64,000 nucleotides of DNA, taken from IMG/VR virus record IMGVR_UViG_3300033571_015173, positions 1 to 64,000 of that record; one strand, given 5' to 3'. Numbering within the stretch: the first letter of the stretch is position 1; every line of letters begins with the position of its first letter. This DNA comes from a virus. The notes beneath the pieces were generated by a model that had not been told where the DNA came from, searched no databases, and saw nothing but the letters and a program-made list of their open reading frames with translations. This document shows positions 13,408 to 29,372 of this stretch, piece by piece. A program made the position numbers and the translations under genes.

Positions 13408-13859
13408 GTCTGCAATACTCTCACCTTAGACCTTTTTGTGCCCCATTACACAGAATGTACACGATCCAAAGATCAGTAAGCATGTACTAAGTCATCACAG
13501 TCACTGCACTGCAATGACTTCAGACTTATTTAGTAACCATATAGATTAAACCCTATGAATATCATAGAGCCTACTTTATGTACTGGGGTTAGAGCTTTTA
13601 CAAAGTCTGATGTCCCCACCACCGACGACCTGGGCATGATCCACTTTTTGATCCGTTTGATCTAGGTAATTATACTTAAAGTCTCATCAACGAGACGGGA
13701 ATTATCTACTAAATATTTGTGGCTCTTAACATAGCTGTTACAATTCAGCCCAAAACGTCATTATCCTTCCTGGAAAGAGGCTCAAATAAGGTTTACACTT
13801 AACATGTTCCCTTGTCAAGATGCTGATATACAAGGGTTGTATGGACTTATCCTGAGTGC

Positions 13860-13921
13860 GTTTTGATTTTGCACCCTGAAACCCTTATGCTGCAATGACT
13901 TTTTGACTTGTTATGACTTTC
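13860..13921. repeat. Compound inverted repeat, left arm
   Basis: Reads GTTTTGATTTT, CTGAAACCCTT, TGCAATGACTT and TGACTTGTTATGACTT in order. It pairs imperfectly with 14111-14171. Confidence 0.75.
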
Positions 13922-14110
13922 TAACTCATAACAAAGTATCGAGCTTCATTCCTAACCTGAGTAAATAAGAAATAATCTATGAGACTATTCAGTATCATAG
14001 ATTGAAGTCTATACAATAGAGTGCTCTCTATGCAAATCGAAAAAAGTCATGACATCTTTTATACGCGAGGGTAAGAAAATCAAATGAGTCCAGGGTTCTA
14101 TAAGGACTTG

Positions 14111-14171
14111 AAAAGTCATGACAAGTCAAACAGTCACAGCGTGGCAAGGGTTTCAGCCCGTAAAATCAAAA
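14111..14171. repeat. Compound inverted repeat, right arm
   Basis: This is the reverse complement of the left arm in the same order (AAAGTCATGACAAGTCA, then GGGTTTCAGCCCG, then AAAATCAAAAC), with scattered differences. Confidence 0.75.
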
Positions 14172-14192
14172 CAGCCTCACGACATTCTCAAC

Positions 14193-14253
14193 ACAAGTCA
14201 TGACAAAACCTTGAACCCCCTGCACGGTAAAGATTTCAGCCATCAAAATCAAA
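14193..14253. repeat. Second, degenerate right arm
   Basis: A direct repeat of the 14111-14171 arm: CAAGTCATGACAAAACC, GATTTCAGCC and ATCAAAATCAAAA are conserved, with the middle diverged. Confidence 0.65.
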
Positions 14254-14333: not shown

Positions 14334-14816
14334 ATGAGACTTCGCCTTTCAGTTCAAATGATGCGTGACATTGAAGAGCATTATGCTCAAACTCACAACA
14401 GAAAGTGGATCGCTAGTCAGGTAGGGTGCAGTGTTGCTACTGTTGTTAAGCATTTAACAAAAGTAGGATTACTTCCAGACGAGAGAACAAAAAGAGCTAT
14501 ACAGGCAAGATCGTTAGGACTTGCCAGGAGAGATCTTATACCGGACGATTGCGAGTTCCAAGATAGATCAAATAGATCTTCAGGTTGTCGCGTTACTGAA
14601 GAACATTTATATAAAATAAGAGCGTTGTATGTAGAAGGATTTACATTAACAGAGATTGCAGCAATCTCTGGTTTTAATTATGGTACTGTAGCTGTCCATA
14701 TAAGAAATACACCACTTGCTGCATTTGAAAGAATTGTTCAAGAAAGAGGGGTTAATTACTTGCCAAGAAAATACGATGGAATAGTAAGTGAACCAAAGAA
14801 GAAGCTGGACTACTAA
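14334..14816 (+). CDS. Double helix-turn-helix DNA-binding protein, 160 aa
   Basis: Two HTH units are visible. The first is at residues ~20-48 (KWIASQVGCSVATVVKHLT) and the second at ~95-122 (EGFTLTEIAAISGFNYGTVAVH). Each has the resolvase/Hin or GcrA-like pattern of short helices. The gene follows the origin-like repeat region and has a palindromic operator over its promoter. It is a candidate repressor or replication initiator accessory protein acting on the nearby repeats. The family is not identified precisely. Confidence 0.7.
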   Translation: MRLRLSVQMMRDIEEHYAQTHNRKWIASQVGCSVATVVKHLTKVGLLPDERTKRAIQARSLGLARRDLIPDDCEFQDRSNRSSGCRVTEEHLYKIRALYVEGFTLTEIAAISGFNYGTVAVHIRNTPLAAFERIVQERGVNYLPRKYDGIVSEPKKKLDY

Positions 14817-16011: not shown

Positions 16012-16395
16012 ATGCATACTCCGTATGCGATCGATGAGTACAGAGGTACTATTTCTTCTGCAGAAAGAATAGAACTTCTCGGGCTGGCCTTCATTTTCAA
16101 AATTTTTGGGAGGAGGGGTTTGCCTGGAATGATCTTACTTGTGAGACAACTTCAAACCTGGATTAGAGCTGGAGAAAGTATTGGTGAGTCGCTCGCCTAT
16201 GCTCGCTTATACCTCCCGACAAAAAGAAAAACCCCGCGTGAGGACGAACCCGACCCGTGGGCCAGTACCTTCGGTCACAAGAGGAGGGGTAGGGGGGAGG
16301 ACTCGGAACCCTGGACCACCCGGACCACCCGGACCACCCGGACCACCGGACCACCCGGATCCGATCCAATCTCCCCATCAGACTCGAAGTCTTGA
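16012..16395 (+). CDS. Hypothetical protein with repeat-derived C terminus
   Basis: The first ~70 codons give a plausible protein (ERIELLGLAFIFKIFGRRG, a hydrophobic helix). The last ~50 codons run through a 9-bp tandem repeat (translated TTRTTRTTR) and through two copies of the intergenic two-hairpin element, so that part may not be functional coding sequence. No clear ribosome binding site precedes the ATG. It may be a gene whose 3' end was overwritten by repeats. Confidence 0.4.
   Translation: MHTPYAIDEYRGTISSAERIELLGLAFIFKIFGRRGLPGMILLVRQLQTWIRAGESIGESLAYARLYLPTKRKTPREDEPDPWASTFGHKRRGRGEDSEPWTTRTTRTTRTTGPPGSDPISPSDSKS
16246..16275 (+). promoter_or_regulatory. Two-hairpin element, copy 1
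   Basis: Core GACCCGTGGGCC then TA plus mini-hairpin ACC-TTC-GGT (16267-16275). Unusually, it lies inside the 16012-16395 reading frame. Confidence 0.5.
16313..16358. repeat. 9-bp tandem repeat
   Basis: GGACCACCC is repeated five times, with one unit shortened by a base. One frame reads TTR repeats, another reads collagen-like GPP repeats. Confidence 0.85.
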
Positions 16396-16423
16396 TCCGA
16401 ACCATCGGGCCACTACCTTCGGT
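16381..16423 (+). promoter_or_regulatory. Two-hairpin element, copy 2
   Basis: Contains TTGATCCGAACC, GGGCC and TA plus mini-hairpin ACC-TTC-GGT (16415-16423). The first part, GACTCGAAGTCTTGATCCGA, is shared with copy 3. Confidence 0.6.
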
Positions 16424-16518
16424 CTATAGATAATCATCGGGGGGCTGCACCTTAGTAACCGTCATCATTGCGGGATCGCAGTGAGCCATAGGTTACACCA
16501 TTCCAGCCTCCCTCATCT

Positions 16519-16560
16519 GACTCGAAGTCTTGATCCGATCCACGGGTCATTACCTTCGGT
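16519..16560 (+). promoter_or_regulatory. Two-hairpin element, copy 3
   Basis: GACTCG...CGGGTC forms the outer stem; TTACC-TTC-GGT (mini-hairpin 16552-16560) follows. It lies 50 nt upstream of the gene at 16610. Confidence 0.65.
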
Positions 16561-16609
16561 CTTTAGGTTACGTGTTACGACTCACCACTCACTCAAGGAG
16601 ACCACGGCC

Positions 16610-16933
16610 ATGTCTACCACCACCACCTCGATCTTTCAAACCAACAGCCGGATCGACGGTTTGCTGCCGAATAGTGGACTAGTCTTACTAGTTCATACCG
16701 AAGCTGGCCCTCGCCTTATTGTTCACACCTCGCGTGTGAATCGGTTACTTGCCCTCATCCGGGAGACCTTCCCTGGTTGCCGTTACCAGTGTGTTGACCC
16801 GGAACATGGTAGCCGGAGGATCAATCCGGGCCATGCCAGTTTTAGGTTGACTGGTGACGGTGACCTCGATGCTTTCGAGGATTACCTAGCCAATCTCTCT
16901 GGCAAGGGAGGAATCTGGGTCTACTCTATCTAG
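16610..16933 (+). CDS. Hypothetical soluble protein, 107 aa
   Basis: The start is fixed by the ribosome binding site CAAGGAGACCACGGCC. The protein opens with a Thr/Ser run, then shows an alternating beta pattern (SGLVLLVHTEAGPRLIVHTS) and helix (RVNRLLALIRETFPG), ending GKGGIWVYSI. I do not recognise the family. GC content and codon use are higher than in the virion block, as in the rest of this accessory region. Confidence 0.65.
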   Translation: MSTTTTSIFQTNSRIDGLLPNSGLVLLVHTEAGPRLIVHTSRVNRLLALIRETFPGCRYQCVDPEHGSRRINPGHASFRLTGDGDLDAFEDYLANLSGKGGIWVYSI

Positions 16934-17038
16934 TACCCAGTCCTTTACTGGCGACTTCCGAGGTTACTAAGGAAGTCTAGTCCTACGCTGAGGCTCACAT
17001 CCTATTAGTGGAATAGGCACCCCTCCTATTTTGCGAGT

Positions 17039-17108
17039 CAGGATTTCTGGTGAGCCTCCGCCTTCGTTCGCATACAGGATTTCTGGTGAGCCTCCGCCTT
17101 CCTTCGCA
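17039..17108. repeat. Tandem 34-bp direct repeat
   Basis: Two copies of a unit starting CAGGATTTCTGGTGAGCC and ending CCTTCGTTCGCA or CCTTCCTTCGCA; one mismatch. Confidence 0.85.
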
Positions 17109-17382
17109 ACATTAGATTTCCTTTGCCTTCTTTCGCAGCATCAGACTTGAAATGGTGCATCACTTCATCTGTCTATCGCTTTATAGCGATGGATGGATTT
17201 AGCGATTCATCGATTTACCTATAAAGTCATTGAGATTGTCTTATATGCGGAATTCGCATAACCTAATGCGGAATCAGCATGAGCACCTTTGCGAAGTCTG
17301 ATTTTTCTCTCGGACCCCTTTAAGTGAGCCCGTCGTTGAGGACGTGGGGATTAAGTGATCGCTGATATGGAAGACCTTTTAC

Positions 17383-17439
17383 TAGCTTCTGGCTATCTAA
17401 AGGGTGAACTTCCTTACCACGCCCTTTCAAGGAGAACAC
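17383..17439 (+). promoter_or_regulatory. Hairpin leader family B, copy 1
   Basis: TAGCTTCTGGCTA forms a small hairpin. AGGGTG...CACGCCCT forms a second, directly before TTCAAGGAG and the ATG at 17440. Confidence 0.6.
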
Positions 17440-17670
17440 ATGTCTTCCAAGCAAGTCTTTACGTTGTCTTCGCTGGTAATCGCCTTCCTGACTCTGGTGA
17501 GTATCTTACTTGCCTTAAACCCCGTCGCACGGGGAGTAATTGCGCTCCCTGGATATGAACATGCGGTCTACTTGTGCGGCGAGTCACTCGTGGTAAATGC
17601 TGGTCATGAGAGTGATCCGCAAATCCGTGAGTTAATTCAGCTTGCACATACTGAGTGTGCCAAGTACTAG
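17440..17670 (+). CDS. Small single-span membrane protein, 76 aa
   Basis: One N-terminal hydrophobic segment (VFTLSSLVIAFLTLVSILLA) is followed by a soluble domain with two Cys (YLCGE, HTECAKY*). The start is chosen by AAGGAGAACAC just upstream. The topology would be a membrane anchor or an uncleaved signal. Family unknown. It shares its hairpin leader with three downstream genes, suggesting a co-regulated set. Confidence 0.65.
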   Translation: MSSKQVFTLSSLVIAFLTLVSILLALNPVARGVIALPGYEHAVYLCGESLVVNAGHESDPQIRELIQLAHTECAKY

Positions 17671-17686
17671 AGTTTCCTCTCTACCA

Positions 17687-17751
17687 GCCCTGGTTTGTAT
17701 CATGGCTGGCTACAGGGTAAATTCTTTTTCACACCCTGCTCAAGGAGAATC
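17687..17751 (+). promoter_or_regulatory. Hairpin leader family B, copy 2
   Basis: CCAGCC...GGCTGG stem, then CAGGGT...ACACCCTG stem, then CAAGGAG and the ATG at 17752. Confidence 0.6.
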
Positions 17752-17985
17752 ATGTCTTTACTTTTGAATAGCCTGGTTGCTGAAGGTTGTGCAGCTTACT
17801 ACACAGCGAAGCCATGTCCGTATTCCCACCGTTCAATCGAACGGGAACTATGGAAGCGAGGTTTCGAGCTTGCAGGTCAGGCTTCAATCGCCTCTCGCTG
17901 TGTGGATATTATCTGCGACTCTGTGAAGCAGCTTGAGTATGAGATGACCGATGGAGATGTCGTTGAACTCGACATCCTCTTTTAG
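17752..17985 (+). CDS. Hypothetical protein, 77 aa
   Basis: It is a compact helical protein with four Cys (EGCAAYY, KPCPYSH, SRCVDIICDS) and an acidic C terminus (EMTDGDVVELDILF). It starts after CAAGGAGAATC. The Cys spacing does not match a zinc finger I know. It belongs to the group of four genes with shared hairpin leaders. Confidence 0.65.
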   Translation: MSLLLNSLVAEGCAAYYTAKPCPYSHRSIERELWKRGFELAGQASIASRCVDIICDSVKQLEYEMTDGDVVELDILF

Positions 17986-17994
17986 CTTCTTAAT

Positions 17995-18071
17995 CTGGCT
18001 CTCGGACCACTTAGAGATCCTGCCGTCTGTTGAGGGCGTGAGGATCCGATCCGGGGGCCAGTAACTTCGTT
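17995..18071 (+). promoter_or_regulatory. Two-hairpin element, copy 4 (long form)
   Basis: CTGGCTCTCGG (17995-18005) pairs over 11 bp with CCGGGGGCCAG (18051-18061). The enclosed part has its own GGAT-CCG-ATCC hairpin. Mini-hairpin AAC-TTC-GTT follows at 18063-18071. Confidence 0.7.
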
Positions 18072-18101
18072 CGCAATATCAGGTGTAGGAGAACTCTCTA
18101 C

Positions 18102-18158
18102 TAGCTTCTGGCTATCTAGAGGGTGAACTTCTTTATCACACCCTTTCAAGGAGAACAC
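18102..18158 (+). promoter_or_regulatory. Hairpin leader family B, copy 3
   Basis: Nearly identical to copy 1: TAGCTTCTGGCTA, then AGGGTG...CACACCCT, then TTCAAGGAG before the ATG at 18159. Confidence 0.65.
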
Positions 18159-18437
18159 ATGTCTACTATCACTTCCTTTGCTGGTCATTATTACAGCACC
18201 TTGTTTCAGCTATATGGAACATGGGAGTTCTGGGCAATGCAAATCCCTTTCTTCGTCTTAACCGTGCTTTGCACCGTTAAGTTTTGCGAGGGAGTAAGAG
18301 ATCTGGTGGATTCTTATCACTCCTCCGAGCTGATCGCTTACTACAAAGCGAGAGCCCGCTTCCGGTACAAAGTCCTTTTGTCGGTGAACCTTCTTTACCT
18401 GCTCTTCGGGGTCTTGTACGTGTTTAACCACATGTAG
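18159..18437 (+). CDS. Two-span membrane protein, 92 aa
   Basis: There are two hydrophobic segments (FWAMQIPFFVLTVLCTVKF and VLLSVNLLYLLFGVLYVF) joined by a basic and acidic loop (YHSSELIAYYKARARFRYK). The start is set by AAGGAGAACAC. An inner-membrane protein with short termini is likely. Candidates such as a holin or superinfection factor cannot be told apart from sequence. Confidence 0.65.
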   Translation: MSTITSFAGHYYSTLFQLYGTWEFWAMQIPFFVLTVLCTVKFCEGVRDLVDSYHSSELIAYYKARARFRYKVLLSVNLLYLLFGVLYVFNHM

Positions 18438-18454
18438 CCCCCGTTAGTCCCTCT

Positions 18455-18515
18455 CTACCAGCCTTCGGGCTGGCTACAGGGTGACTTTCTTTATCACACT
18501 CTGCAAGGAGCAATC
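18455..18515 (+). promoter_or_regulatory. Hairpin leader family B, copy 4
   Basis: CCAGCC-TTC-GGGCTGG hairpin, then CAGGGTG...CACACTCTG, then CAAGGAG before the ATG at 18516. Confidence 0.65.
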
Positions 18516-18863
18516 ATGTATTTCTATCAAACACCTGAATATCATCGGGCAATTGTAGATGTTGAAGATACAGACATTTTGAAATCGCTGCGTTACGTCC
18601 GTCAAAGTGGAGAACGGCTAATTTATCGGGTGAGATTCCCGAACCAGCCGTGTCAGTACGAAGACGAGTTGATCTTGACTCTCGACAGGGAGATGCGTCT
18701 CTCTGTTCGGGACATCCGTACTTGGGCGGATGACGGCCAGATTGAGACGAAGATTGTGTCAGTTGAGAAATTGACTCGCAACCTCCCCTATATGGGGAGC
18801 TATGACAAAGCGATTTCGTTGCGATTCCTTGCCTGTGCGCAAGGTTTCGTTGAAGCGGAGTAG
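18516..18863 (+). CDS. Hypothetical protein, 115 aa
   Basis: It is a soluble mixed alpha/beta protein beginning MYFYQTPEYHRAIVDVEDTD with several aromatic and charged beta stretches (ERLIYRVRFPNQP). No recognised motif or membrane segment. It is the fourth gene with a family B leader. Confidence 0.65.
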   Translation: MYFYQTPEYHRAIVDVEDTDILKSLRYVRQSGERLIYRVRFPNQPCQYEDELILTLDREMRLSVRDIRTWADDGQIETKIVSVEKLTRNLPYMGSYDKAISLRFLACAQGFVEAE

Positions 18864-18867
18864 TTTG

Positions 18868-18950
18868 ATCTCTCAGGCTGGGCTTAGTCTAGACTGACTC
18901 TGTATGTGAGTCTAGGCTGATGTGGGTTCGACTCCCACACTGAGTCTTGT
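18868..18950 (+). ncRNA. tRNA-like structure 1 (non-canonical)
   Basis: A perfect T-arm (TGTGGG-TTCGACT-CCCACA, 18921-18939) is preceded by a stem-loop GACTC-TGTATGT-GAGTC. Only about 5 bp of acceptor stem are found (CTCAG with CTGAG) and position 33 is not U. It is probably a degenerate tRNA or tRNA mimic, not a working tRNA. Confidence 0.35.
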
Positions 18951-18971
18951 TTAGTGTTTTGGAGGAAGTTA

Positions 18972-19352
18972 ATGAAGGGCTTTGCTTACGAGCAAGCCTG
19001 CATCGAAGTGCTAATCAAGGCTGGGTTTAAGCCAGTCTCGATTACATCCCAGCAACGGGCTCGACTGGTTTCGCAGTTTGAGCCTAAGTTCAAGAAGGTC
19101 GCCAGTGAAGGTGGTCTTCTTGTCCAGGATCTGTCTGATAGGGACATCCTGGATTATGCTGGGGTCGATTTCGTGGCCACATACAGGGGTTGGCCAATTG
19201 GAATCGACTTCACTTTGAAGTCTGACACTGCTTCAAAGGAGAGATGCGGGAAGCTCATCAAGAAGTGTCTGAGTCTTGACTTCTTTGTTGTCTATAACGG
19301 AGATGTTCAAGATGTCGTTAAGGGCGTTCGCAAGGCTATGGGCTTGCCCTAG
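18972..19352 (+). CDS. PD-(D/E)XK-like nuclease candidate, 126 aa
   Basis: The start at 18972 has GGAGGAAGTTA upstream. The helix EQACIEVLIKAGFKPVSI is followed by YAGVDFVATYRGWPIGIDFT and LKSDTAS. That order (Asp strand, turn, acidic strand ending in Lys) resembles the core of restriction-endonuclease-fold enzymes. The spacing is D-x3-K instead of the usual (D/E)-x-K, so the catalytic assignment is uncertain. It ends in a short strand and helix (DFFVVYNGDVQDVVKGVRKA). Confidence 0.55.
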   Translation: MKGFAYEQACIEVLIKAGFKPVSITSQQRARLVSQFEPKFKKVASEGGLLVQDLSDRDILDYAGVDFVATYRGWPIGIDFTLKSDTASKERCGKLIKKCLSLDFFVVYNGDVQDVVKGVRKAMGLP

Positions 19353-19425
19353 TCTGTGTTCGTCCTGGGGGCTCCCTCTCGATCCTGGAGTCCCCGAATT
19401 GCGTGTCGTTAGTTTAGAGGTCTTT

Positions 19426-19686
19426 ATGGATAAGAACCACTGGCTAGAGGGTGAATGGGGTTTCAATCCCCGACACTACGCTGAAGAGTTGTTGCTACTA
19501 CTGGAGAACGCTCCAGATGGGCAACAGAAGAGGGACGATATAAGATTGTTGTCCATGATTCTCCAGCAAAAGGAGAGTACGTGTCTAGATCCCCCCGAGG
19601 AATGGGACTACGCCTACCACTTGCACTGTCGAGTGGAGAAGGCCATGTTACGCGATACACGCTGGGAAGACTGGAACAAGATTTAG
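19426..19686 (+). CDS. Hypothetical protein, 86 aa
   Basis: The start at 19426 follows TAGAGG. It is a small acidic helical protein (YAEELLLLLENAPDGQQK), Trp-rich at both ends (GEWGF, RWEDWNKI). No family recognised. Confidence 0.55.
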   Translation: MDKNHWLEGEWGFNPRHYAEELLLLLENAPDGQQKRDDIRLLSMILQQKESTCLDPPEEWDYAYHLHCRVEKAMLRDTRWEDWNKI

Positions 19687-19698
19687 TTCCTCTCGTAA

Positions 19699-19743
19699 GC
19701 CCTTAGATCATCCGAATCCGATCCGAGGGCATATAACTTCGTT
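19699..19743 (+). promoter_or_regulatory. Two-hairpin element, copy 5
   Basis: GCCCTTAGAT (19699-19708) pairs with ATCCGAGGGC (19721-19730) at 9 of 10 positions. Mini-hairpin AAC-TTC-GTT lies at 19735-19743. The stem differs from copies 9 and 10 yet still pairs. Confidence 0.75.
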
Positions 19744-19812
19744 CTAGGATTCGGACAAGTAGCCTAAGAACTATAGATGAACCCGGTTTTTAGCCTTAAC
19801 AGTAGGGTTCAG

Positions 19813-19890
19813 TTGCTACATGGGATTGTCTCTATTGACTTCTTCTGTTGGTGGTCATGGAGCATTGAGGTTCGACTCCTCAAGTAGCAG
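19813..19890 (+). ncRNA. tRNA-like structure 2
   Basis: A 7-bp acceptor (TTGCTAC with GTAGCAG, one wobble), a perfect T-arm (TTGAGG-TTCGACT-CCTCAA), a short D-like arm (GGGA-TTG-TCTC) and a weak anticodon-like arm with loop TTCTTCT are visible. CCA is not encoded. The minimal D loop and wobble-rich stem argue against a normal tRNA. Confidence 0.45.
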
Positions 19891-19928
19891 TTGCTGTGTA
19901 AATCCTTTCACAACACAGCGGAGGTTTC

Positions 19929-20615
19929 ATGTTGGTAACTCAAGCTCAAGCTCGGATGATCGATGTCTTTTTCAAGTCTGTCTCTAAGACTTTAGACATC
20001 TCTCTGGAGTGTGCGCGGAGGGATCTTCCATTGGTCTGGAAGGTTGTCTCTACCATTGCCGTTATTAGTGCGGCTGCATCCTACGGAGCTGGATGGGGAA
20101 GTCGCAAGCTACTCCATCGTTTAATGACGTGGATCGACAGTTACGTTCAGTACTGCATGGAGGTTCACATGGAGGTTGACATGAAGGTTGATATGGACGA
20201 TCCCATCCTGGAAGCTCCCGCCCGCGAATGGGAAGAGCAAGAGGTTTGGTGGGACGAGATCAGTTGCGAGGATGAAGACTTCCAGTCCTGTCCTCCCCCT
20301 CCCGAATACCTGCAAGAGATCATCGACTGTGAATATCTTCACCCTGAAGATCATCCCTTCGGTGAGGCGTTGTTGCATCCTGATCCAGTGGTTGAGTTTG
20401 CTGTCGAGCTCTCCATCGGGGAAATGGTTGAAGTTGAGGGAGAAATCCCAGTATTGACAACTCCATCTCCAACCTTCTTTCGGGAGGAGTTAATGGGTTG
20501 TGGATTGCCCTACTTGATTGCGTTGGCTGAAGTTCTTGAAGTCGATGTCAACCAGGTTCCTTACAAAGGATACAGGAAAGCCCCGCTGGTGGAGGCTATC
20601 TTAGCCGCTCAGTAA
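19929..20615 (+). CDS. Membrane-anchored acidic protein with SAP/Rho-N-like end, 228 aa
   Basis: Residues ~37-60 form a hydrophobic segment (VVSTIAVISAAASYGAGWG). It is followed by a small imperfect repeat, MEVHMEVDMKVDMDD, and a long acidic middle. The last ~40 residues (LPYLIALAEVLEVDVNQ, then YRKAPLVEAILAAQ) look like the helix-extended-helix nucleic-acid-binding unit of SAP/Rho-N/HeH domains. It could tether nucleic acid to the membrane, but that is inference. Confidence 0.6.
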   Translation: MLVTQAQARMIDVFFKSVSKTLDISLECARRDLPLVWKVVSTIAVISAAASYGAGWGSRKLLHRLMTWIDSYVQYCMEVHMEVDMKVDMDDPILEAPAREWEEQEVWWDEISCEDEDFQSCPPPPEYLQEIIDCEYLHPEDHPFGEALLHPDPVVEFAVELSIGEMVEVEGEIPVLTTPSPTFFREELMGCGLPYLIALAEVLEVDVNQVPYKGYRKAPLVEAILAAQ

Positions 20616-20625
20616 TCGCTCAATC

Positions 20626-20650
20626 CGAACCGGGGGTCCTTACCTCCGGT
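20626..20650 (+). promoter_or_regulatory. Two-hairpin element, copy 6 (short)
   Basis: AATCCGAACCGGGGGTCC then TTACC-TCC-GGT (mini-hairpin 20642-20650); the loop is TCC rather than TTC. Outer stem not clear. Confidence 0.5.
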
Positions 20651-20690
20651 TGTTTCCTTGTTTGATTGTCGTTTTAGCTGGAGTTTCACT

Positions 20691-20873
20691 ATGAGCTACG
20701 GTCGCCCATTGCGCGAGTATTTTGGAAGGGGTCGCACTCCTTTGCTGGATCCTAAAGTTTGTCACGGTATCGCTCTCTATCATCGGCGCAAGCCTGACGG
20801 TGGAAAAGATGCTCGTCTGCGTTTGGGTTGGGAAATTGCGTTTTTGTCTGCTCCGATGCGCAATTTCCGTTAA
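20691..20873 (+). CDS. Small basic protein, 60 aa
   Basis: The start at 20691 follows GCTGGAG. The product is Arg-rich (MSYGRPLREYFGRGRTP, DARLRLGWEIAF), soluble and possibly nucleic-acid-binding by charge. No family recognised. Confidence 0.55.
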   Translation: MSYGRPLREYFGRGRTPLLDPKVCHGIALYHRRKPDGGKDARLRLGWEIAFLSAPMRNFR

Positions 20874-20880
20874 TTGTTGT

Positions 20881-20916
20881 GGGCCTGAGGATTAATCCAA
20901 TGGCCCTTTTGTTTTC
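20881..20916 (+). terminator. Terminator-like hairpin related to the two-hairpin element
   Basis: GGGCC...GGCCC with inner GGAT...ATCC, followed by TTTTGTTTTC. The stem resembles element copies 9 and 10 (GCCTGAGGAT) but a T-run replaces the mini-hairpin. Confidence 0.65.
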
Positions 20917-20936
20917 TTACTTATTGGAGGTTCATC

Positions 20937-21227
20937 ATGATTCTGTATATTCAGGTTGGGTCTAGAACTCTCAAGGTCTTTGAGGCTGATGGGAAAGTAA
21001 TCAATGCAAAGATCGTTCCTAATTTACCTGGGAATACTACATTTGCGGTATCGGGGTGGGATCTAGTTACTGAACAACAATCATCCTACGCTCATGATTG
21101 TGAGCGGGAGTTCTGGACTCCCAAGGATGAGGCGGAGTATTTGGAGCTGGAGATGGATAGGAACTGCCATTGCGGTTCTGGTCAACCCTGGCATAGTTGC
21201 TCCACTAAAAGCCCTGAGTGTGGATAG
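20937..21227 (+). CDS. SEC-C-like zinc-motif protein, 96 aa
   Basis: The C terminus has CHCGSGQPWHSC followed by a further Cys (PECG), which matches the SEC-C zinc-binding motif (CxCGSG...C) of SecA tails and many small proteins. The N-terminal half is beta-rich (ILYIQVGSRTLKVFEADGK). The start follows GGAGGTTCATC. SEC-C modules mediate protein or nucleic-acid contacts; the partner here is unknown. Confidence 0.7.
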   Translation: MILYIQVGSRTLKVFEADGKVINAKIVPNLPGNTTFAVSGWDLVTEQQSSYAHDCEREFWTPKDEAEYLELEMDRNCHCGSGQPWHSCSTKSPECG

Positions 21228-21233
21228 GAAGCC

Positions 21234-21377
21234 ATGAAAACTTTCTTTGCGATTTTCCGTTTTAATCGCGAGTACAAGAAGGTCCGAGTTGGGCCTCTCT
21301 ATCTCGTTCGTGAAACGGCATTGGAGCATTGCGGTGTCGGATGCTGGGTAGAATCTGTTCCTTACCCACACCCCTAG
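21234..21377 (+). CDS. Small hypothetical protein, 47 aa
   Basis: The gene starts 4 nt after the preceding stop (ATAGGAAGCCATG supplies the ribosome binding site). It encodes MKTFFAIFRFNREYKKVRVG then LYLVRETALEHCGVGCWVES. Two Cys lie close together (CGVGC). It is too short for a family call, but spacing and signal support translation. Confidence 0.5.
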   Translation: MKTFFAIFRFNREYKKVRVGPLYLVRETALEHCGVGCWVESVPYPHP

Positions 21378-21388
21378 TTCATTCGTAT

Positions 21389-21435
21389 GAGCCCAAAGAT
21401 CCTTCGATCCCGATCCAAGGGCTCATAACTTCGTT
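21389..21435 (+). promoter_or_regulatory. Two-hairpin element, copy 7
   Basis: GAGCCC...GGGCTC outer stem enclosing GATCCTTCGATCCCGATCC; mini-hairpin AAC-TTC-GTT at 21427-21435. Near-identical to copy 8. Confidence 0.75.
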
Positions 21436-21467
21436 TTTATTTACCTCAAATTACAAGGAGCATTCGT

Positions 21468-22001
21468 ATGAAGTCCTATAACTTATCCGCTAAGTCTATT
21501 GAAGTCGCTGGAAACGCTCTTTTTGTTATCCAACTGGGAGAGGCTGGTAGGGCAAGGGTTCTGAATTCTATCAAGTGCCCCCTCTATCTGAAGGACGGTG
21601 ACTTTGCAACACCTATCTTCTCAGAGATCAAGGCTAGTGGAGTGGCAACGAAGCCAAGTATCTCCGCAGGTGGAGATGGTGAAGGTTGGCTGGCGAGAAT
21701 CAGCACATTATCCTCCTATGTTAGAGGAGCTGATGGGAACGTCAGTTATGATCCAGCATTCTGCCCCACACCACCAAGGTTACTGGCAAAAGGATCTGGG
21801 GCATTCGGATTGGCTGGGGGAACTGGAAGGTGGGACGATCTCATCGTAGCGGTTGAGGACAACACCATCCTGCGCGTCAAACCTAGCAGGGGAGATGCAT
21901 ATTACCTGTATTTTCAGGAAGATAGAGTGTCTCAGTTGACCCGTGACCAGCTTGAATTATTGGATCTAGAATTCAACCTGGATTCTAGAGTTCGGATCTA
22001 A
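21468..22001 (+). CDS. Hypothetical protein, 177 aa
   Basis: Starts after ACAAGGAGCATTCGT. It is a soluble beta-rich protein (ALFVIQLGEAGRARVLNSIK, ILRVKPSRGDAYYLYFQED) with a Gly-rich middle (GSGAFGLAGGTGRWDD). No known motif. Confidence 0.65.
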   Translation: MKSYNLSAKSIEVAGNALFVIQLGEAGRARVLNSIKCPLYLKDGDFATPIFSEIKASGVATKPSISAGGDGEGWLARISTLSSYVRGADGNVSYDPAFCPTPPRLLAKGSGAFGLAGGTGRWDDLIVAVEDNTILRVKPSRGDAYYLYFQEDRVSQLTRDQLELLDLEFNLDSRVRI

Positions 22002-22007
22002 CTTTAT

Positions 22008-22054
22008 GAGCCCAAAGATCCTTCGATCCCGATCCAAGGGCTTATAACTTCGTT
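22008..22054 (+). promoter_or_regulatory. Two-hairpin element, copy 8
   Basis: Same sequence as copy 7 apart from the last stem bases (GGGCTT); mini-hairpin AAC-TTC-GTT at 22046-22054. Confidence 0.75.
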
Positions 22055-22087
22055 TGCAAATCATAACAACAAATCAGCCGGAGGAAT

Positions 22088-22381
22088 ATGATCAAAGTTA
22101 CTTACGACCAGAAAGACGGGTATGCAATCGCAAATATCGAAATGAGTGAGGTTGTTCGGGCATGTGAGTTGAATATGATTGACCTCTCGCCGACTCCCCC
22201 CTTTAACCAGGGGATCATCGTCAATGGAAGGATAACCACCTGGGTTGCTGGCTTCCTAGTTCACCAGTTCCATCCATATCAATGGGTGGGAATCAATGAT
22301 CCCCGTCTAGGGGGAGGAGTGGTGGTTTCAAGACACCATGCAGATGCTCCCGAGGTGGGGGCAATCTTTGTTTGGGAGTAG
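22088..22381 (+). CDS. Hypothetical protein, 97 aa
   Basis: Starts after CCGGAGGAAT. Beta-rich and Val/Ile/Trp-rich (GIIVNGRITTWVAGFLVHQF, GGGVVVSRHHADAPEVGAI). No membrane segment or recognised family. Confidence 0.6.
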   Translation: MIKVTYDQKDGYAIANIEMSEVVRACELNMIDLSPTPPFNQGIIVNGRITTWVAGFLVHQFHPYQWVGINDPRLGGGVVVSRHHADAPEVGAIFVWE

Positions 22382-22516
22382 GTGTAGACTAACTTCTTCG
22401 GTGTCCATGCACCGTATGCCAACATGGATCCTAATTGAGGCTGGTTTGATGATAATTTGATTGCTGGTTCGCGTTTTTGCCGTTGTACGGGGAACAGAAA
22501 CAACGGTTTTCTATTT

Positions 22517-22577
22517 GGGCTGCGTTCTGGAGAACGAGAGATGAGAGCCTCTCTTGGGTTCAATCCCCTTGCTGCCC
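22517..22577 (+). ncRNA. tRNA-like structure 3, 61 nt
   Basis: Acceptor GGGCTGC with GCTGCCC (6 of 7 paired), a perfect short D-like arm GTTC-TGGA-GAAC, an arm GAGAG-(8 nt)-CTCTC and a TTCAATC T-loop on a 3-bp GGG/CCC stem. No variable loop or linker bases remain, so it is much shorter than a working tRNA. Confidence 0.4.
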
Positions 22578-22609
22578 GCATTGTCCAACGCCACTAAAGG
22601 AGAATTATC

Positions 22610-23065
22610 ATGGGTATTCGCTTACATTTCGGTTTGGTTCCAGTCCAAGTCTACAATGCTCTGAACATGACTCCTCAAGAGTTGGAGCTGGCGTTGTTGC
22701 TGGACAAGATGGAGGCTTTGCGTTTTGATCGCAGGGTGAGTGTTTCAGAGGAGTATCAATGCGATCCCACTTTCGTTCTTTATGAAGCAGGTCAGCGAAT
22801 TGAACAAGAAATGACTAGCGTTTCTCGCTATCGCAGACTTGTCGATGGCGAGATTGGAAAAGTGTATCCTGACAAGGAGTGGAAACCAGCCGACTTTGAT
22901 GAGACTATCAAGAAGGAGTATGGTTATACCTCCATAGATCAGGAATTGATTCTGAATATGATCAATAAAGCCTATACAGAGGATTATCTTGACTCTGTGG
23001 AGTGGATTACATTGATCAGTCTCTACAAAGCTAACCCATCATCTGTGAAGATGTATTGGTGTTAG
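22610..23065 (+). CDS. Hypothetical protein, 151 aa
   Basis: Starts after AAAGGAGAATTATC. Helical (MTPQELELALLLDKMEALRF, YTSIDQELILNMINKAYTED) and charged. It resembles DUF1877-type proteins in its opening (MGIRLHFGLVPVQVYNALNM), a comparison I hold loosely. Confidence 0.6.
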   Translation: MGIRLHFGLVPVQVYNALNMTPQELELALLLDKMEALRFDRRVSVSEEYQCDPTFVLYEAGQRIEQEMTSVSRYRRLVDGEIGKVYPDKEWKPADFDETIKKEYGYTSIDQELILNMINKAYTEDYLDSVEWITLISLYKANPSSVKMYWC

Positions 23066-23079
23066 CCTAAGTCGTGCTG

Positions 23080-23127
23080 GCCTGAGGATTATCTGTCACT
23101 TCCGATCCTCGGGCTAGTAACTTCGTT
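23080..23127 (+). promoter_or_regulatory. Two-hairpin element, copy 9
   Basis: GCCTGAGGAT pairs over 10 bp with ATCCTCGGGC; mini-hairpin AAC-TTC-GTT at 23119-23127. Confidence 0.8.
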
Positions 23128-23156
23128 CGATTTCTTATTAGTTCATAAGGAGAGTC

Positions 23157-23624
23157 ATGATTATTAACGGAACTGAAGGTCTGACTCATATTAATATCTA
23201 TTCTCGTTCCCAACTTTCTTTGGGGCGATGGTTGAGCAACTTCGCATACTCTCCGATTGTTACAGAGGATGGCAATTTTAACTCTATTGAAGGGTACTGG
23301 TATTGGCTTGGAGTCCTGGAGGGAACGGAAGGTCGGGACACGCTGAGAAAGCTGCATGGATATTCTGCAAAGGAATTTGGTAGAAAGATCAGATCTGCTA
23401 ATTTATGCATGATTCCTGAAGAGGAATTTAAGCGTAAGGTTTTAGCTGCAATAGATTTGAAGCTGAAGTCTGATCTAAATAACTTGAAGCTTCTTGCAGA
23501 AAGTGAGCTTCCCTTTAGTCATTATTATGAGTATAAAGGCAAGCGGGTAGATGCAGGTTTTGGCTGGCTTGTGGATCACTTTACGCAGAGAAGGACTTTA
23601 CTTAAAGAGAAGTGGCTTAAATAA
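23157..23624 (+). CDS. NADAR-domain (YbiA-like) glycosidase
   Basis: At 155 aa it matches NADAR/YbiA length. The family pattern is present: an opening strand (INIYSRSQLSLGRWLSNFAY), then NSIEGYWYWLG in place of the usual Glu-containing helix, then the ALK-like helix region TLRKLHGYSAKEFGRKI, and the late strand YYEYKGKRVDAGFGWLVD. Family members cleave N-glycosidic bonds in riboflavin intermediates or ADP-ribose derivatives. Next to DUF4326 and SLOG proteins it suggests NAD- or ADP-ribose-related chemistry. Activity is not proven. Confidence 0.75.
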   Translation: MIINGTEGLTHINIYSRSQLSLGRWLSNFAYSPIVTEDGNFNSIEGYWYWLGVLEGTEGRDTLRKLHGYSAKEFGRKIRSANLCMIPEEEFKRKVLAAIDLKLKSDLNNLKLLAESELPFSHYYEYKGKRVDAGFGWLVDHFTQRRTLLKEKWLK

Positions 23625-23631
23625 TTTATTA

Positions 23632-23679
23632 GCCTGAGGATTATCTGTCACTTCCGATCCTCGGGCTAGTAACTTCGTT
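23632..23679 (+). promoter_or_regulatory. Two-hairpin element, copy 10
   Basis: 48 bp identical to copy 9 through the mini-hairpin (23671-23679), 552 bp away; a recent duplication. Confidence 0.8.
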
Positions 23680-23710
23680 TCTAAATCAATCAATTAGAGA
23701 GGAGAAGACA

Positions 23711-23935
23711 ATGACGATCTCAGCGGGATACGGTATTGACATTGTTCCCACCTGGCACACTCACTGGGGGCACTTATGCTCTGAGGAGCGCAATGTGTTG
23801 GACGCTATTCGAGACCTAGAAGAAGCATCGCAGGACTCGGAACAGCTTGCTTGCATCTTTCAGGCTGCATACGATACTCTGCCGCGAATCCTGAAGGATG
23901 CCTATGATGAGGCATTCAATTATCTAGCTCCATAG
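23711..23935 (+). CDS. Small acidic helical protein, 74 aa
   Basis: Starts after GAGGAGAAGACA. Sequence is helical and acidic (RNVLDAIRDLEEASQDSEQL) with an aromatic, His-rich start (IVPTWHTHWGHLC). It lies between the NADAR and DUF4326 genes and may act with them; family unknown. Confidence 0.6.
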   Translation: MTISAGYGIDIVPTWHTHWGHLCSEERNVLDAIRDLEEASQDSEQLACIFQAAYDTLPRILKDAYDEAFNYLAP

Positions 23936-23947
23936 GAGAAGAGCAAC

Positions 23948-24406
23948 ATGATTGCATTCTATCCATTTAATCTGCACAACTCTCTATTGGTCCAAGCTTT
24001 CTCTCGTTCTGTTCGGGCAGATCGGGACACAGCGCTAGGGAATCCGTTTGTAATGACGGAAACCCACAGTAGAGATCAGGTTTGTGCTGGATACGAGAAG
24101 TATTTTCAGCTGATCCTCTCTGGTTCTGAACCGGAGGATGCCGCTTATGAGGTGGCGGAAGAGCAGCAACTTTTGATTGGGAAGTTCTGGAAAAATCCTA
24201 ATCGAAAAGCCTTTGTTAGAGCACTTAATGACATCTTTGAGGCAGCACTGAAAGACTACCAACAAAGAGGAATCCATACAGTGTTTCTTCAATGCTGGTG
24301 TGCTCCCCAGAAATGTCATGTGGACACAATCTGCAGCTATTTCAACACAAAGATCGAAGGGATGCTTGAGAAGATCAAACCCTTCGATTATTCTGACCCG
24401 CGTTGA
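23948..24406 (+). CDS. DUF4326-family protein, 152 aa
   Basis: It shows the DUF4326 pattern: GNPFVM near residue 30, a helical body, and the cysteine motif LQCWCAPQKCHVDTI near residues 117-131. The family often sits beside NADAR and SLOG genes in phage and plasmid genomes. The biochemical role of DUF4326 is not established. Starts after AGGAGAAGAGCAAC. Confidence 0.75.
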   Translation: MIAFYPFNLHNSLLVQAFSRSVRADRDTALGNPFVMTETHSRDQVCAGYEKYFQLILSGSEPEDAAYEVAEEQQLLIGKFWKNPNRKAFVRALNDIFEAALKDYQQRGIHTVFLQCWCAPQKCHVDTICSYFNTKIEGMLEKIKPFDYSDPR

Positions 24407-24438
24407 TTTCGATTTCACCTTATGGAGGGGGGTCAGCA

Positions 24439-24672
24439 ATGGCCCCTAATTTGATTATGAAAATGTATCTTGACAAGTATGCAGATAAGCCAGTGTTAAT
24501 TTTACAGACTGGCTATTATGCAACCTTCTTTTATTTTTGGGGCTGGAACTGTGAATGGCTGGCTCTCAAGTTTGGCAAATCTAAAGTTCATGTAGACAGT
24601 GATTGTATCAACGAGATTACTGAATACAGCTTTGATAGTTGGTGGTTAGGCTCTCATCGTTCTTGGAGATAA
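24439..24672 (+). CDS. Small aromatic protein, 77 aa
   Basis: The start at 24439 is chosen for GGAGGGGGGTCAGCA upstream. It contains a hydrophobic aromatic stretch (YYATFFYFWGWNCEWLALKF), perhaps membrane-associating. Ends 2 nt before the SLOG gene. Confidence 0.55.
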   Translation: MAPNLIMKMYLDKYADKPVLILQTGYYATFFYFWGWNCEWLALKFGKSKVHVDSDCINEITEYSFDSWWLGSHRSWR

Positions 24673-24674
24673 TC

Positions 24675-25157
24675 ATGAAGATAATGGTTACGGGTCCACG
24701 CTCGATTGTTGAGTTGACTCTAGAAGAGCGACTCGCAATTGTTGATAGAATCGCGATTCAGTTTGAAAAGATTAAGCCTAAGTTAATCCATATAGGCATG
24801 GCTGAAGGCTTTGATGAATTCAGTGTCTATGCTGCGGTTAGGCTAGGGCTTCCCTTTATCGCTTGCTTACCATCTCCTGGGTATGGCCAATATTATTGGC
24901 GAGATCATAGCAAAACTGGTTTGGACAGGTTCGCTAGATTTGAGGCCATGTTGGAAAAAGCCAGTGACATTATCGTGGTCTGTAGAGATCACCAAATGGG
25001 TCGAGCGAATTTTCTCCGCAATACCTATATGGTAGAGCGGTCTGAATTAGTGGTGTCTTACCTTGAAAGCTACCCTTCCCCTGGCACAAGACATGCCTTA
25101 AGAGAGGCGCGGAATCATAAGTTAGATATTGTCTTCACTGAGGAGGTTCCATTTTAG
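24675..25157 (+). CDS. SLOG-superfamily (DprA/LOG-like) nucleotide-binding protein, 160 aa
   Basis: MKIMVTGPRSIVE is a Rossmann-like first strand and turn. IHIGMAEGFDEFSVYAA supplies the G-x-A-x-G-x-(D/E) turn typical of SLOG/YspA-type domains, followed by FIACLPSPGYGQYY and a loop (WRDHSKTGLDRF). The superfamily binds or hydrolyses nucleotides or NAD derivatives. Its neighbours NADAR and DUF4326 support a nucleotide-metabolism module. The start follows TTGGAGATAATC. Confidence 0.75.
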   Translation: MKIMVTGPRSIVELTLEERLAIVDRIAIQFEKIKPKLIHIGMAEGFDEFSVYAAVRLGLPFIACLPSPGYGQYYWRDHSKTGLDRFARFEAMLEKASDIIVVCRDHQMGRANFLRNTYMVERSELVVSYLESYPSPGTRHALREARNHKLDIVFTEEVPF

Positions 25158-25159
25158 CT

Positions 25160-25429
25160 ATGGACTTAGCAGAAGTTTTGCAAATTTTGAAGGACTTGGC
25201 TGATAACCTTACTGAGGTTGACGGCTGGGATGATAACGAAGAGAAGGTAAAGTTTGAAGAGATGCTAGAAAACTTCAATCCTTCTCATCGCGAGTTCGTA
25301 CTTCAGTTGAGAGATGACTGCCTGGACGCAAGCCAGATGCAGTGGGCCTTACTTCTCTCGCATGTCGCTCATGTTATGACAGAGCCTGGTTTGTGGGAAG
25401 GCAAAGAAGTTCAACTATCTTGGAATTGA
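25160..25429 (+). CDS. Hypothetical protein, 89 aa
   Basis: Acidic helical protein (LAEVLQILKDLADNLTEVDG, KFEEMLENFNPSHREFVLQL) starting 2 nt after the SLOG stop. The GAGG ribosome binding site lies in the end of the SLOG gene, so the two are coupled. Family unknown. Confidence 0.6.
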   Translation: MDLAEVLQILKDLADNLTEVDGWDDNEEKVKFEEMLENFNPSHREFVLQLRDDCLDASQMQWALLLSHVAHVMTEPGLWEGKEVQLSWN

Positions 25430-25430
25430 C

Positions 25431-26288
25431 ATGAAGGCATTATCTGGATCCGGTGTGAAAATGTTGAGCTTGACTCAGCACCAAGCCAAGAATACTGAGG
25501 ACTGGCAGTTCTTAATGAGTCTTCTTGATCAGAAGCTAATCTCTCAGGCAGAAGCTTCGATGGTGAAAATCAAACACAGGCTGAATGAGTACCCACCTGA
25601 GTACGACTTTGCATTTAGTGCAAACGTACTTATTAACTCATATAGGGTCCAAGCTTACCCTGATCACTTGCATACGATCATTGGCTACGAAGACTACTGG
25701 AAAAGGGTTCAGCATAAAAGTCTGTCGGTAGTAACAAAGGGCTATATCTTGTCAGTTTGTCAAGAAGCTGTCAGGCTGAATCAGCAGGCGAATTCCACTC
25801 AGCGGGTCCTCATGGAAGGGGATTTGACTGCAAAGGATACGACTTTAGTGAAGGCGTACTTAGATGACGTTCTTCCGGGGTTGGATTATCTTACAACTCA
25901 TGTTCCTAAAGGAGTGTTTGCCCGGTTTAATATACACCCCTGTTTGGCATGGTTCTCTGCTGATTATCAAGCGGAGATTGATGGGAAGACCATGCTTCAG
26001 ATTCGGTGGTCGTTGGCTAGCAAACCTATGTCTGGTATTGTTGCCAGAACGTTGGCATACTGGCTTCTTGAAGACTGCAAGCATGAGGAGTGTATTATTG
26101 CCCTACCAAGGCAAGAGCAAACCCTCACCATTGACCCCAAAGACTTTCTTAATGGGAGTATTTCTGTTGCTCGCTCAGATGTTAGAACAATGTCAAGACT
26201 TAAGATGTCAGCCATTCTTGAGTCTAGAAAAACAAAGACGTTGGGAGAACTATCAGACGAGTATCAACAACGATTAAGAGGGTTCTAG
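25431..26288 (+). CDS. Hypothetical protein, 285 aa
   Basis: The largest protein of the accessory island. It is mainly helical, with LTQHQAKNTEDWQFLMSLLD near the N terminus and a mixed C-terminal half (FLNGSISVARSDVRTMSRLK). There is no P loop, no membrane segment and no motif I recognise. Starts 1 nt after the previous stop, hence the same operon. Confidence 0.65.
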   Translation: MKALSGSGVKMLSLTQHQAKNTEDWQFLMSLLDQKLISQAEASMVKIKHRLNEYPPEYDFAFSANVLINSYRVQAYPDHLHTIIGYEDYWKRVQHKSLSVVTKGYILSVCQEAVRLNQQANSTQRVLMEGDLTAKDTTLVKAYLDDVLPGLDYLTTHVPKGVFARFNIHPCLAWFSADYQAEIDGKTMLQIRWSLASKPMSGIVARTLAYWLLEDCKHEECIIALPRQEQTLTIDPKDFLNGSISVARSDVRTMSRLKMSAILESRKTKTLGELSDEYQQRLRGF

Positions 26289-26307
26289 CTGTATGAAGCG
26301 AGGTTAT

Positions 26308-26338
26308 CGAGTCCGATCCAAGGGCTCGTAACTTCGTT
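26308..26338 (+). promoter_or_regulatory. Two-hairpin element, copy 11 (short)
   Basis: CGAGTCC-GATCCAA-GGGCTCG stem-loop, then mini-hairpin AAC-TTC-GTT at 26330-26338. Confidence 0.8.
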
Positions 26339-26372
26339 TCTAGATCAACTTAAGAAAAGACAAGGAGGAAAT

Positions 26373-26663
26373 ATGTACGCAGGACTTAGTGAAGATGAAT
26401 TCGACGAGTACTTGGAAGAGATGTACTGGGACTGCTACACCAGGGTCCAAGAACAGGCTTACGAAAAACTGAAAGCTGTTGCTGTCAATGTTGGCAGTCT
26501 CAAGCCTCTTTCCCCTGGCTTTAGCGTATATGCTCCCTGGAAGGACTTGCAACAACTGAGATTGCTCTCGGAAGCGGTTCGCTCTGGAATCAGGGAGTTC
26601 CGGGAGAGCTATCAGTCGTGCTTGTTACCCGCGTTCGCAGAAGACTGGCCTGAGTATTTTTAG
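26373..26663 (+). CDS. Hypothetical protein, 96 aa
   Basis: Starts after CAAGGAGGAAAT. Acidic, helical N terminus (LSEDEFDEYLEEMYWD) and a helical C-terminal half (LLSEAVRSGIREFRESYQ). No recognised family. Confidence 0.6.
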   Translation: MYAGLSEDEFDEYLEEMYWDCYTRVQEQAYEKLKAVAVNVGSLKPLSPGFSVYAPWKDLQQLRLLSEAVRSGIREFRESYQSCLLPAFAEDWPEYF

Positions 26664-26678
26664 GTTTCTCGTTTGTCT

Positions 26679-26725
26679 GAGCCCAAGGATTCCCCGATCC
26701 CGATCCAAGGGCTCGTAACTTCGTT
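26679..26725 (+). promoter_or_regulatory. Two-hairpin element, copy 12
   Basis: GAGCCCAAGGAT...ATCCAAGGGCTC pairs through GAGCCC/GGGCTC and GGAT/ATCC; mini-hairpin AAC-TTC-GTT at 26717-26725. Confidence 0.8.
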
Positions 26726-26761
26726 TTCTATTAACTCAAGAAGAAATCCCAAGGAGGGAGT

Positions 26762-27211
26762 ATGCAAGCATCATTCTTTGTCTATCAGACTGACAATCAG
26801 AGCCTACTTTCGCTGCGAGTTTATATTCCTGCGAGTGAAGAGGTTCCAGAAGCATGGGTTGAGGCCCAGGAGAACTTAGACTGTCTAAATACTAAATCAT
26901 GGGGCCATCATGGAACAGCCCTGTGGTTCCGCACTAAGTCTAATGATCTTCTTGACCTGGTTCGAGTCTATGTTTCTCACAAGCAAATGTTCCAGCTCCC
27001 TCCCAGTCTGCGGCACAGACAGGAGCATAGACAGTTATTAAAGCAAGCTCTGGCCTACGCTGAAGAAGATCAGAAAAAACTGGCCGCTCAGATTGAGAAA
27101 GATGCAGAACATGGATCCGCTTTCTCTCAGTTGAAAGATACTGCACTTGCCCAGGTTCGGCAAACACTGGAGGAGATCAACCAGTACCGCCAACTGTTTC
27201 GCTTAGTCTGA
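26762..27211 (+). CDS. Hypothetical protein, 149 aa
   Basis: Starts after CCAAGGAGGGAGT. Beta-rich first half (SFFVYQTDNQSLLSLRVYI) with a pattern VPEAWVEAQENL, then a long coiled helix (QALAYAEEDQKKLAAQIEKD). Function unknown. Confidence 0.6.
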   Translation: MQASFFVYQTDNQSLLSLRVYIPASEEVPEAWVEAQENLDCLNTKSWGHHGTALWFRTKSNDLLDLVRVYVSHKQMFQLPPSLRHRQEHRQLLKQALAYAEEDQKKLAAQIEKDAEHGSAFSQLKDTALAQVRQTLEEINQYRQLFRLV

Positions 27212-27218
27212 TATTTTC

Positions 27219-27252
27219 TAGGGGCTCCGATCCAGGGGCTCCTAACTTCGTT
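27219..27252 (+). promoter_or_regulatory. Two-hairpin element, copy 13 (short)
   Basis: TAGGGGCTC pairs over 9 bp (two wobbles) with GGGCTCCTA around CGATCCAG; mini-hairpin AAC-TTC-GTT at 27244-27252. Confidence 0.75.
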
Positions 27253-27286
27253 CTCATATAAACTCAGTCATCTAATTAGGAGCATC

Positions 27287-27601
27287 ATGGTTTTTCAAAA
27301 TCCTTCCTATCATAATTGTGAAGTTGAAGTGACTCTGTATGAGCGTGTTTTTCAATCCGAGTTATTACCTGCTAGCATCGCTGTTAGTCTTGTTATGTGC
27401 GTCGAGCAAGAAAGTCGTTGGGCTACTAATAACGATGATGTGGACTACAACGAAGCCGATGGGCTGGGCGGTGCTAAATACTATTATCTGCGTCAAACTT
27501 TCCAGGTGAGAGTAGGCTCGAAAGTTGTTAAGATCACCGATTGTTATAACACAGCGGTCCAACACTACTTTGCAACCAGTGTCTCGTTTGAAGCTATCTA
27601 A
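27287..27601 (+). CDS. Hypothetical protein, 104 aa
   Basis: Starts after TTAGGAGCATC. Beta-rich (EVEVTLYERVFQSELLPASI, QTFQVRVGSKVVKITD) with acidic Asn-rich centre (NNDDVDYNEADG). Family unknown. Confidence 0.6.
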   Translation: MVFQNPSYHNCEVEVTLYERVFQSELLPASIAVSLVMCVEQESRWATNNDDVDYNEADGLGGAKYYYLRQTFQVRVGSKVVKITDCYNTAVQHYFATSVSFEAI

Positions 27602-27619
27602 GAATGCAAGGAGAATCTA

Positions 27620-28090: not shown

Positions 28091-28376
28091 TAAGTGGATC
28101 TGGCTGTTTCAGTTTGGAGTGGGTCCCCTGTACCATCGGTTTTATGTGGAGGGGGTCAACTCTCATCAGGCTTTGATGACGTTACGAGAGAGGCACCCGG
28201 AATTGAGGCCCTTGAAGTTAAGGTCTGTGCTCCTAGTTGCACAACCTCTAGAGGCTTTTGAGGATGAGCCGATTGATCCTCGTTTCGGTCCCAACGCCGA
28301 AGATACTGGGTTTAGTGTTGGACTAAGCAGGGCAGAAGTATTCACCTATTCGGAGAAAGATTATGAACTTGATTAA
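28074..28376 (+). CDS. Hypothetical protein, 100 aa
   Basis: The start at 28074 has AAGGAGTCTCGTG upstream, inside the previous gene. Beta-rich opening (KWIWLFQFGVGPLYHRFYVE) and acidic end. Its 3' end overlaps the next small membrane gene. Family unknown. Confidence 0.6.
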   Translation: MEQTNNKWIWLFQFGVGPLYHRFYVEGVNSHQALMTLRERHPELRPLKLRSVLLVAQPLEAFEDEPIDPRFGPNAEDTGFSVGLSRAEVFTYSEKDYELD

Positions 28377-28506: not shown

Positions 28507-28513
28507 TAGAGTT

Positions 28514-28551: not shown

Positions 28552-28592
28552 TCAATCGTAAATAACAACAACAAGCCCAAGGAGGGCACATC

Positions 28593-29366: not shown

Positions 29367-29372
29367 TCTAAC

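Follow-up and report, generated by a model that had tools for sequence, protein, structure and literature searches.

Inverted arms repeated at two loci of an S-EIV1-like phage genome share a short motif with cyanobacterial CRISPR leaders

The 64,000-nt stretch of phage DNA analysed here (the window) carries, in two intergenic gaps, a ~70-nt site in five copies, most of which form outward-pointing inverted pairs around a conserved core hairpin. The best-conserved stretch of these arms is not their many, iteron-like TGACTT boxes but a short motif that is enriched in Cyanobacteriales genomes and lies at fixed positions in CRISPR leaders. Our preferred, though tentative, reading is that the element could be a DNA platform bound by a factor that recognizes CRISPR leaders, acting in cis, as a decoy or in both ways.

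Both the existence of two distant loci with inverted arms around a core hairpin and the presence of a third arm at locus 1 had been put forward in the original prediction and are borne out by our results (Table 1). All 10 arm pairs share 66-82% identity, with z values of 7-16 against shuffles, and blastn aligns locus 1 with locus 2 at an E value of 1e-10. The boxes attributed earlier to both arms are real but do not occur in every arm: exact TGCAATGACTT is found in three of the five, as well as at 13510, and exact GTCATGACTT is restricted to 14044(-), 14113(-), 14195(-) and 59351(+), together with two unrelated sites. A profile trained on the five arms revealed no further full arm copy in the whole phage record, and the exact arm pattern had no match in the viral and genome collections. 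Capsid relatives turned up in two genomes of cyanobacteria and in a viral contig of 14 kb; these match the structural region only, without arms. Searches started from the primase, the HTH protein, the 9.9-kb protein and the 58.1-kb protein gave no related locus for comparison, although three stretches matched the 58.1-kb protein.

Table 1. Coordinates within the window of the arms, core hairpins, leader-like motifs and neighbouring genes.
Feature	Position	Strand	Remarks
Locus 1 left arm	13861-13930	+	~70 nt; nhmmer 59.9 bits; 82% identical to locus 1 right arm
Locus 1 right arm	14102-14171	-	nhmmer 64.3 bits
Locus 1 third arm	14195-14253	-	nhmmer 43.8 bits; direct repeat of right arm
Locus 2 left arm	59363-59433	+	nhmmer 61.5 bits
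Locus 2 right arm	59533-59600	-	nhmmer 59.0 bits
Weak partial (half-) arm by third core copy	13490-13525	-	nhmmer 11.4 bits, E 0.04; exact TGCAATGACTT at 13510
Locus 1 core hairpin	13965-14012	-	
Locus 2 core hairpin (CTATGGTTTTCATAG)	59452-59502	-	
Third core hairpin copy (CTATGAATATCATAG..TGGGGTTA)	13541-13592	+	73% over 51 nt against locus 2 core (blastn, E 6e-6)
TAAGGGTTTCAG in locus 1 left arm	13876-13887	-	leader-like motif 12/12
CAAGGGTTTCAG in locus 1 right arm	14145-14156	+	leader-like motif 11/12
TAAAGATTTCAG in third arm	14228-14239	+	leader-like motif 10/12; preceded by ACCTTGAA
TAAGGGTTTCAG in locus 2 left arm	59378-59389	-	leader-like motif 12/12; full 15-mer GGTAAGGGTTTCAGC exact
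CGGGGGTTTCAG in locus 2 right arm	59576-59587	+	leader-like motif 9/12
160-aa protein gene, candidate arm binder	14334-14816	+	two weak helix-turn-helix (HTH) matches (PHROGs, Pfam)
82-aa ORF directly 3' of locus 2	59618-59866	+	ATG at 59618

The core follows the same plan in three copies, CTATG..CATAG and then ..GGTTA 14 nt later. The third of them, missed in the original prediction, runs opposite to the other two and adjoins the weak half-arm only. The design is modular, with an arm, a core and a second arm, to which locus 1 adds further arms and cores. The core-hairpin pattern also had three matches in viral contigs, which lack arms nearby and were taken as chance.

The virus record from which the window is taken extends over 87.8 kb. 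About 87 bp recur at its two ends, and the alignment of a related contig (L007) spans the end junction; the phage genome is therefore circular or circularly permuted. Synechococcus phage S-EIV1 (KJ410740) is its nearest named relative, and the sole one found, with a capsid that is ~44% identical over its length and a primase that is 29% identical. Since S-EIV1 is the only named relative and the ClpP protease encoded by the phage (L005:8758-9291) has its best relatives among cyanobacterial proteins, a cyanobacterial host is likely, and we describe the phage as a freshwater, S-EIV1-like cyanophage.

Other features of this genome deserve mention. The phage encodes an EAL-domain protein of the cyclic-di-GMP phosphodiesterase family (L005:17313-18383). 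Around 15 repeats of ~140 nt occupy 46495-48725 of the window and give short ORFs of the type RGGSW..CRSAYR..IGFRVV, which are C-terminal pieces of the FGE-sulfatase/C-type-lectin fold; FGE-sulfatase is matched by three phage proteins, and no reverse transcriptase family was found. Additionally, CCGATCCnnGGGCnnnTAACTTCGTT occurs in at least 15 copies (16246-30391, 45886 and 59878 of the window), mostly 30-80 nt 5' of start codons and several of them forming a GAGCCC..GGGCTC hairpin; from its placement, it is probably a promoter or 5'-UTR element specific to this phage. When the window was scanned for Rfam families and tRNAs, no match appeared.

Csx3 proteins are cyclic-oligonucleotide nucleases of type III systems, and the phage carries a gene of this family at 22088-22378 (+) of the window (Pfam E 7e-15, PADLOC E 1e-18), whose product, a CRISPR-associated protein encoded by a phage, may help the virus to counteract type III signalling. 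Its presence makes type III CRISPR pressure plausible, although it is no evidence for a decoy.

The arm centre, GGTAAGGGTTTCAGCC, links the element to host genomes. In 386 cyanobacterial genomes, several of the short blastn matches to locus 2 fell on this centre; allowing up to three mismatches, its 25-mer matched four genomes, compared with none for the reversed control, and two of these loci adjoin CRISPR arrays. Among 149 Cyanobacteriales genomes, many of them absent from the first sample, the 15-mer GGTAAGGGTTTCAGC has 31 exact matches versus 3 for its reversed control, whereas the neighbouring arm 15-mer AAAGTCATTGCAGGG, used as a negative control, is not enriched (1 match versus 1). CRISPR arrays lie at 16 of the 30 fetched GGTAAGGGTTTCAGC loci, 15 of them flagged by the detector and one (L143) recognized by eye, with the same leader and repeats; nearly half of the host copies of the 15-mer lie away from arrays. 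The end of the motif is 99-102 nt upstream of the first repeat in 11 measured loci and 6-7 nt in 3, distances that hold across different repeat families, some of the counted leaders being from related genomes. At one locus (L123) the motif has the reverse orientation and stands on the array's leader side. Both the enrichment of the motif and its fixed leader positions are robust.

Most leaders with the motif at about -100 have a second, degenerate copy 93 nt (once 94) downstream, and the CRISPR3 leader of Synechocystis pSYSA is laid out similarly, with TAAGGATTTCAG ~102 nt before the array and CGTAAGGCTTT further on. The pairing of a -100 motif with a degenerate copy 93-94 nt on was observed at L125, L128, L129, L131, L132, L134, L138, L140, L143 and L144, whose repeats are unrelated, and in several loci the degenerate copy stands ~7 nt before the array. 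This double motif is a candidate phased recognition signal. For cyanobacterial type I-D systems, published work attributes higher spacer uptake to three conserved leader motifs and considers it probable that a postulated host DNA-bending factor stands in for IHF (PMC10212523).

The motif also occurs in other settings. In four cyanobacterial genomes (L118, L119, L121 and L122) the 15-mer follows a tRNA-Val(GAC) or tRNA-Leu(UAG) gene at a distance of roughly 10-35 bp, away from CRISPR arrays. A looser pattern, AAGGGTTTCAGC..GTT..GAAAC, was tried as a test of CRISPR adjacency and rejected: one of its three matches was a CRISPR leader, and it mostly missed leaders because the exact motif is usually at -100, outside the pattern. 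CTTGCTGGGTAAGGGTTTCAGCC is present, apparently between genes, in two related viral contigs (IMGVR_UViG_3300042301_002489 and 3300042402_004580; L113 1787-1807 and L114 1847-1867). Other phages may hence carry a leader-like motif, the number of matches being near a rough chance expectation.

Within the phage, the likeness to leaders extends somewhat beyond the motif. In the third arm, ACCTTGAA is spaced from the motif as in five host leaders. An HMM built only from the repeat-proximal part of ten host leaders, a block that had played no part in choosing those leaders, has its top four phage-wide matches in four of the five arms, at weak E values of 0.05-0.42, and a profile of the distal leader part reaches a best E of 1e-4 in the phage, with modest scores. 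A direct pair of motifs exists at locus 1 only, where the third-arm motif starts 83 nt beyond that of the right arm, about one helical turn short of the 93 nt (93-94 in leaders); locus 2 has none. The leader match was found post hoc and comprises only ~12-16 nt common to arms and leaders; being homologous, the five arms amount to a single observation. A repeat search of the window gave no CRISPR array around either locus, and no arm is followed by a CRISPR repeat; the arms are therefore not CRISPR leaders. A solitary CRISPR-like repeat 3' of the third arm was considered and found unsupported. Comparison of the phage with 338 spacer intervals, taken from pSYSA or from arrays close to the motif, gave only matches of 13-21 nt, which we took as chance.

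How the arms might be read depends on whether they act as DNA or as RNA. As single strands, both loci fold much better than their dinucleotide shuffles (RNA z -8.9 and -7.1; DNA folding z -6.9 for locus 2) and both loci lie between co-directional genes, as would suit a transcribed long hairpin serving as attenuator, RNase III site or small RNA. An arm maintained through base pairing would be expected, however, to match its own partner best, whereas the left arms of loci 1 and 2 are 79% identical and the two arms of locus 2, once reverse-complemented, only 71%. Arm identity is as high between loci as within them, so that the sequence is conserved in both orientations with no within-locus pairing excess, which argues for copies of a directional, protein-read DNA site; the unpaired third arm also favours this. 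Neither an Rfam match nor, by consensus scan, a promoter or terminator inside the element was found. We thus consider a structured RNA unlikely, and the arms look like DNA sites for protein binding. Two or three insertions of a MITE-like miniature mobile element, bounded by terminal inverted repeats, would account for units of ~190-310 bp with a conserved interior and three core copies, and yet such an element is very unlikely: no transposase family was detected by Pfam, no copy of the element turned up in searches of viral, genome, plasmid and phage collections, its ill-defined boundaries are unlike between the loci, with no target-site duplication evident by eye, and the third arm is solitary.

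Almost as likely as the leader-factor platform is a phage-specific origin and/or operator, whose arms would be bound by a phage protein (the HTH protein encoded at 14334, or an initiator) and whose likeness to leaders would be a coincidence or reflect a shared, unremarkable host motif. The surroundings of locus 1 favour it: a ~1-kb gene-free gap immediately 5' of the HTH gene, close to where gene orientation changes from leftward to rightward and inside a flat, broad minimum of the cumulative GC skew (11-18 kb), a skew that also tracks gene orientation. Locus 2 is found ~1.8 kb downstream of a primase-like gene, and the many TGACTT boxes of the arms are iteron-like. (For the 82-aa ORF next to locus 2, the ORF listing gives a longer version from 59549, which would overlap the right arm.) Locus 2 is, however, away from the skew extremes, the maximum being at 66-83 kb; moreover, conservation within the arms peaks at the host leader motif instead of the TGACTT boxes, and S-EIV1 lacks a comparable inverted repeat. 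The partition and recombination sites that had also been suggested are at odds with the Pfam scan, in which no ParA/ParB and no integrase, resolvase or transposase family appeared among the 98 predicted proteins, though divergent ones may escape it. What stands of the original prediction is a set of repeated, probably protein-bound sites at two loci, whereas the specific roles given to them are unsupported.

Returning to the leader-factor platform, we propose that a factor recognizing the leader motif would also bind the phage arms, the shared 12-16-nt motif suggesting shared binding. Candidates for this factor would be the Cas1-Cas2 adaptation complex, or a host DNA-bending or regulatory factor that positions that complex. 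Used in cis, the arms could serve local control of neighbouring genes, such as the HTH gene, or replication from an origin; used as a decoy, they could draw the factor off the CRISPR leader by titration. It is from the repeats, their conservation, the motif enrichment and the leader position, all observed at the level of sequence, that we infer binding, the protein responsible and any consequence for CRISPR. The narrower idea that the arms are decoy CRISPR leaders, capturing the adaptation machinery or an obligate host leader factor and so lowering spacer acquisition or array expression, seems to us rather doubtful.

If the decoy idea were true, the element would be an anti-CRISPR made of DNA and not of protein or RNA, and arms and leaders bound by one protein would define a new principle of counter-defence, that of DNA decoys of the adaptation step. 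Alternatively, binding of the same protein would offer a handle on the postulated host factor that bends cyanobacterial leaders. Even without the phage, the double motif (~-100 and ~-7, spaced by 93 nt), shared by leaders with unrelated repeats, offers a recognition signal that can be tested. The unexpected CRISPR-leader motif is worth a binding experiment, the decoy reading being unproven.

Among known systems, S-EIV1 is the nearest named relative but has no comparable inverted repeat. Phage origins and operators of the iteron type consist of multi-copy intergenic boxes beside a DNA-binding gene, and the element resembles them in its multi-copy boxes, in the gap next to such a gene and in its proximity to the GC-skew minimum; it differs in its two distant loci, its long inverted arms and the lack of a family-level match. 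With cyanobacterial CRISPR leaders, such as that of Synechocystis pSYSA CRISPR3, the arms share (GG)TAAGGGTTTCAG(C), ACCTTGAA at leader spacing in the third arm and, at locus 1, two direct motif copies. Unlike leaders, the arms have no CRISPR repeats or spacers, form outward-facing inverted pairs, space the direct copies by 83 instead of 93 nt and lack the CGCA/GTCGGA box found 5' of the motif in leaders. Solitary CRISPR repeat units and the phage RNA anti-CRISPRs (Racr) mimic the repeat as RNA. If the decoy reading were true, phage mimicry of a part of the CRISPR locus would be common to both, by means of repeat RNA in Racr and of leader DNA motifs only in the element described here.
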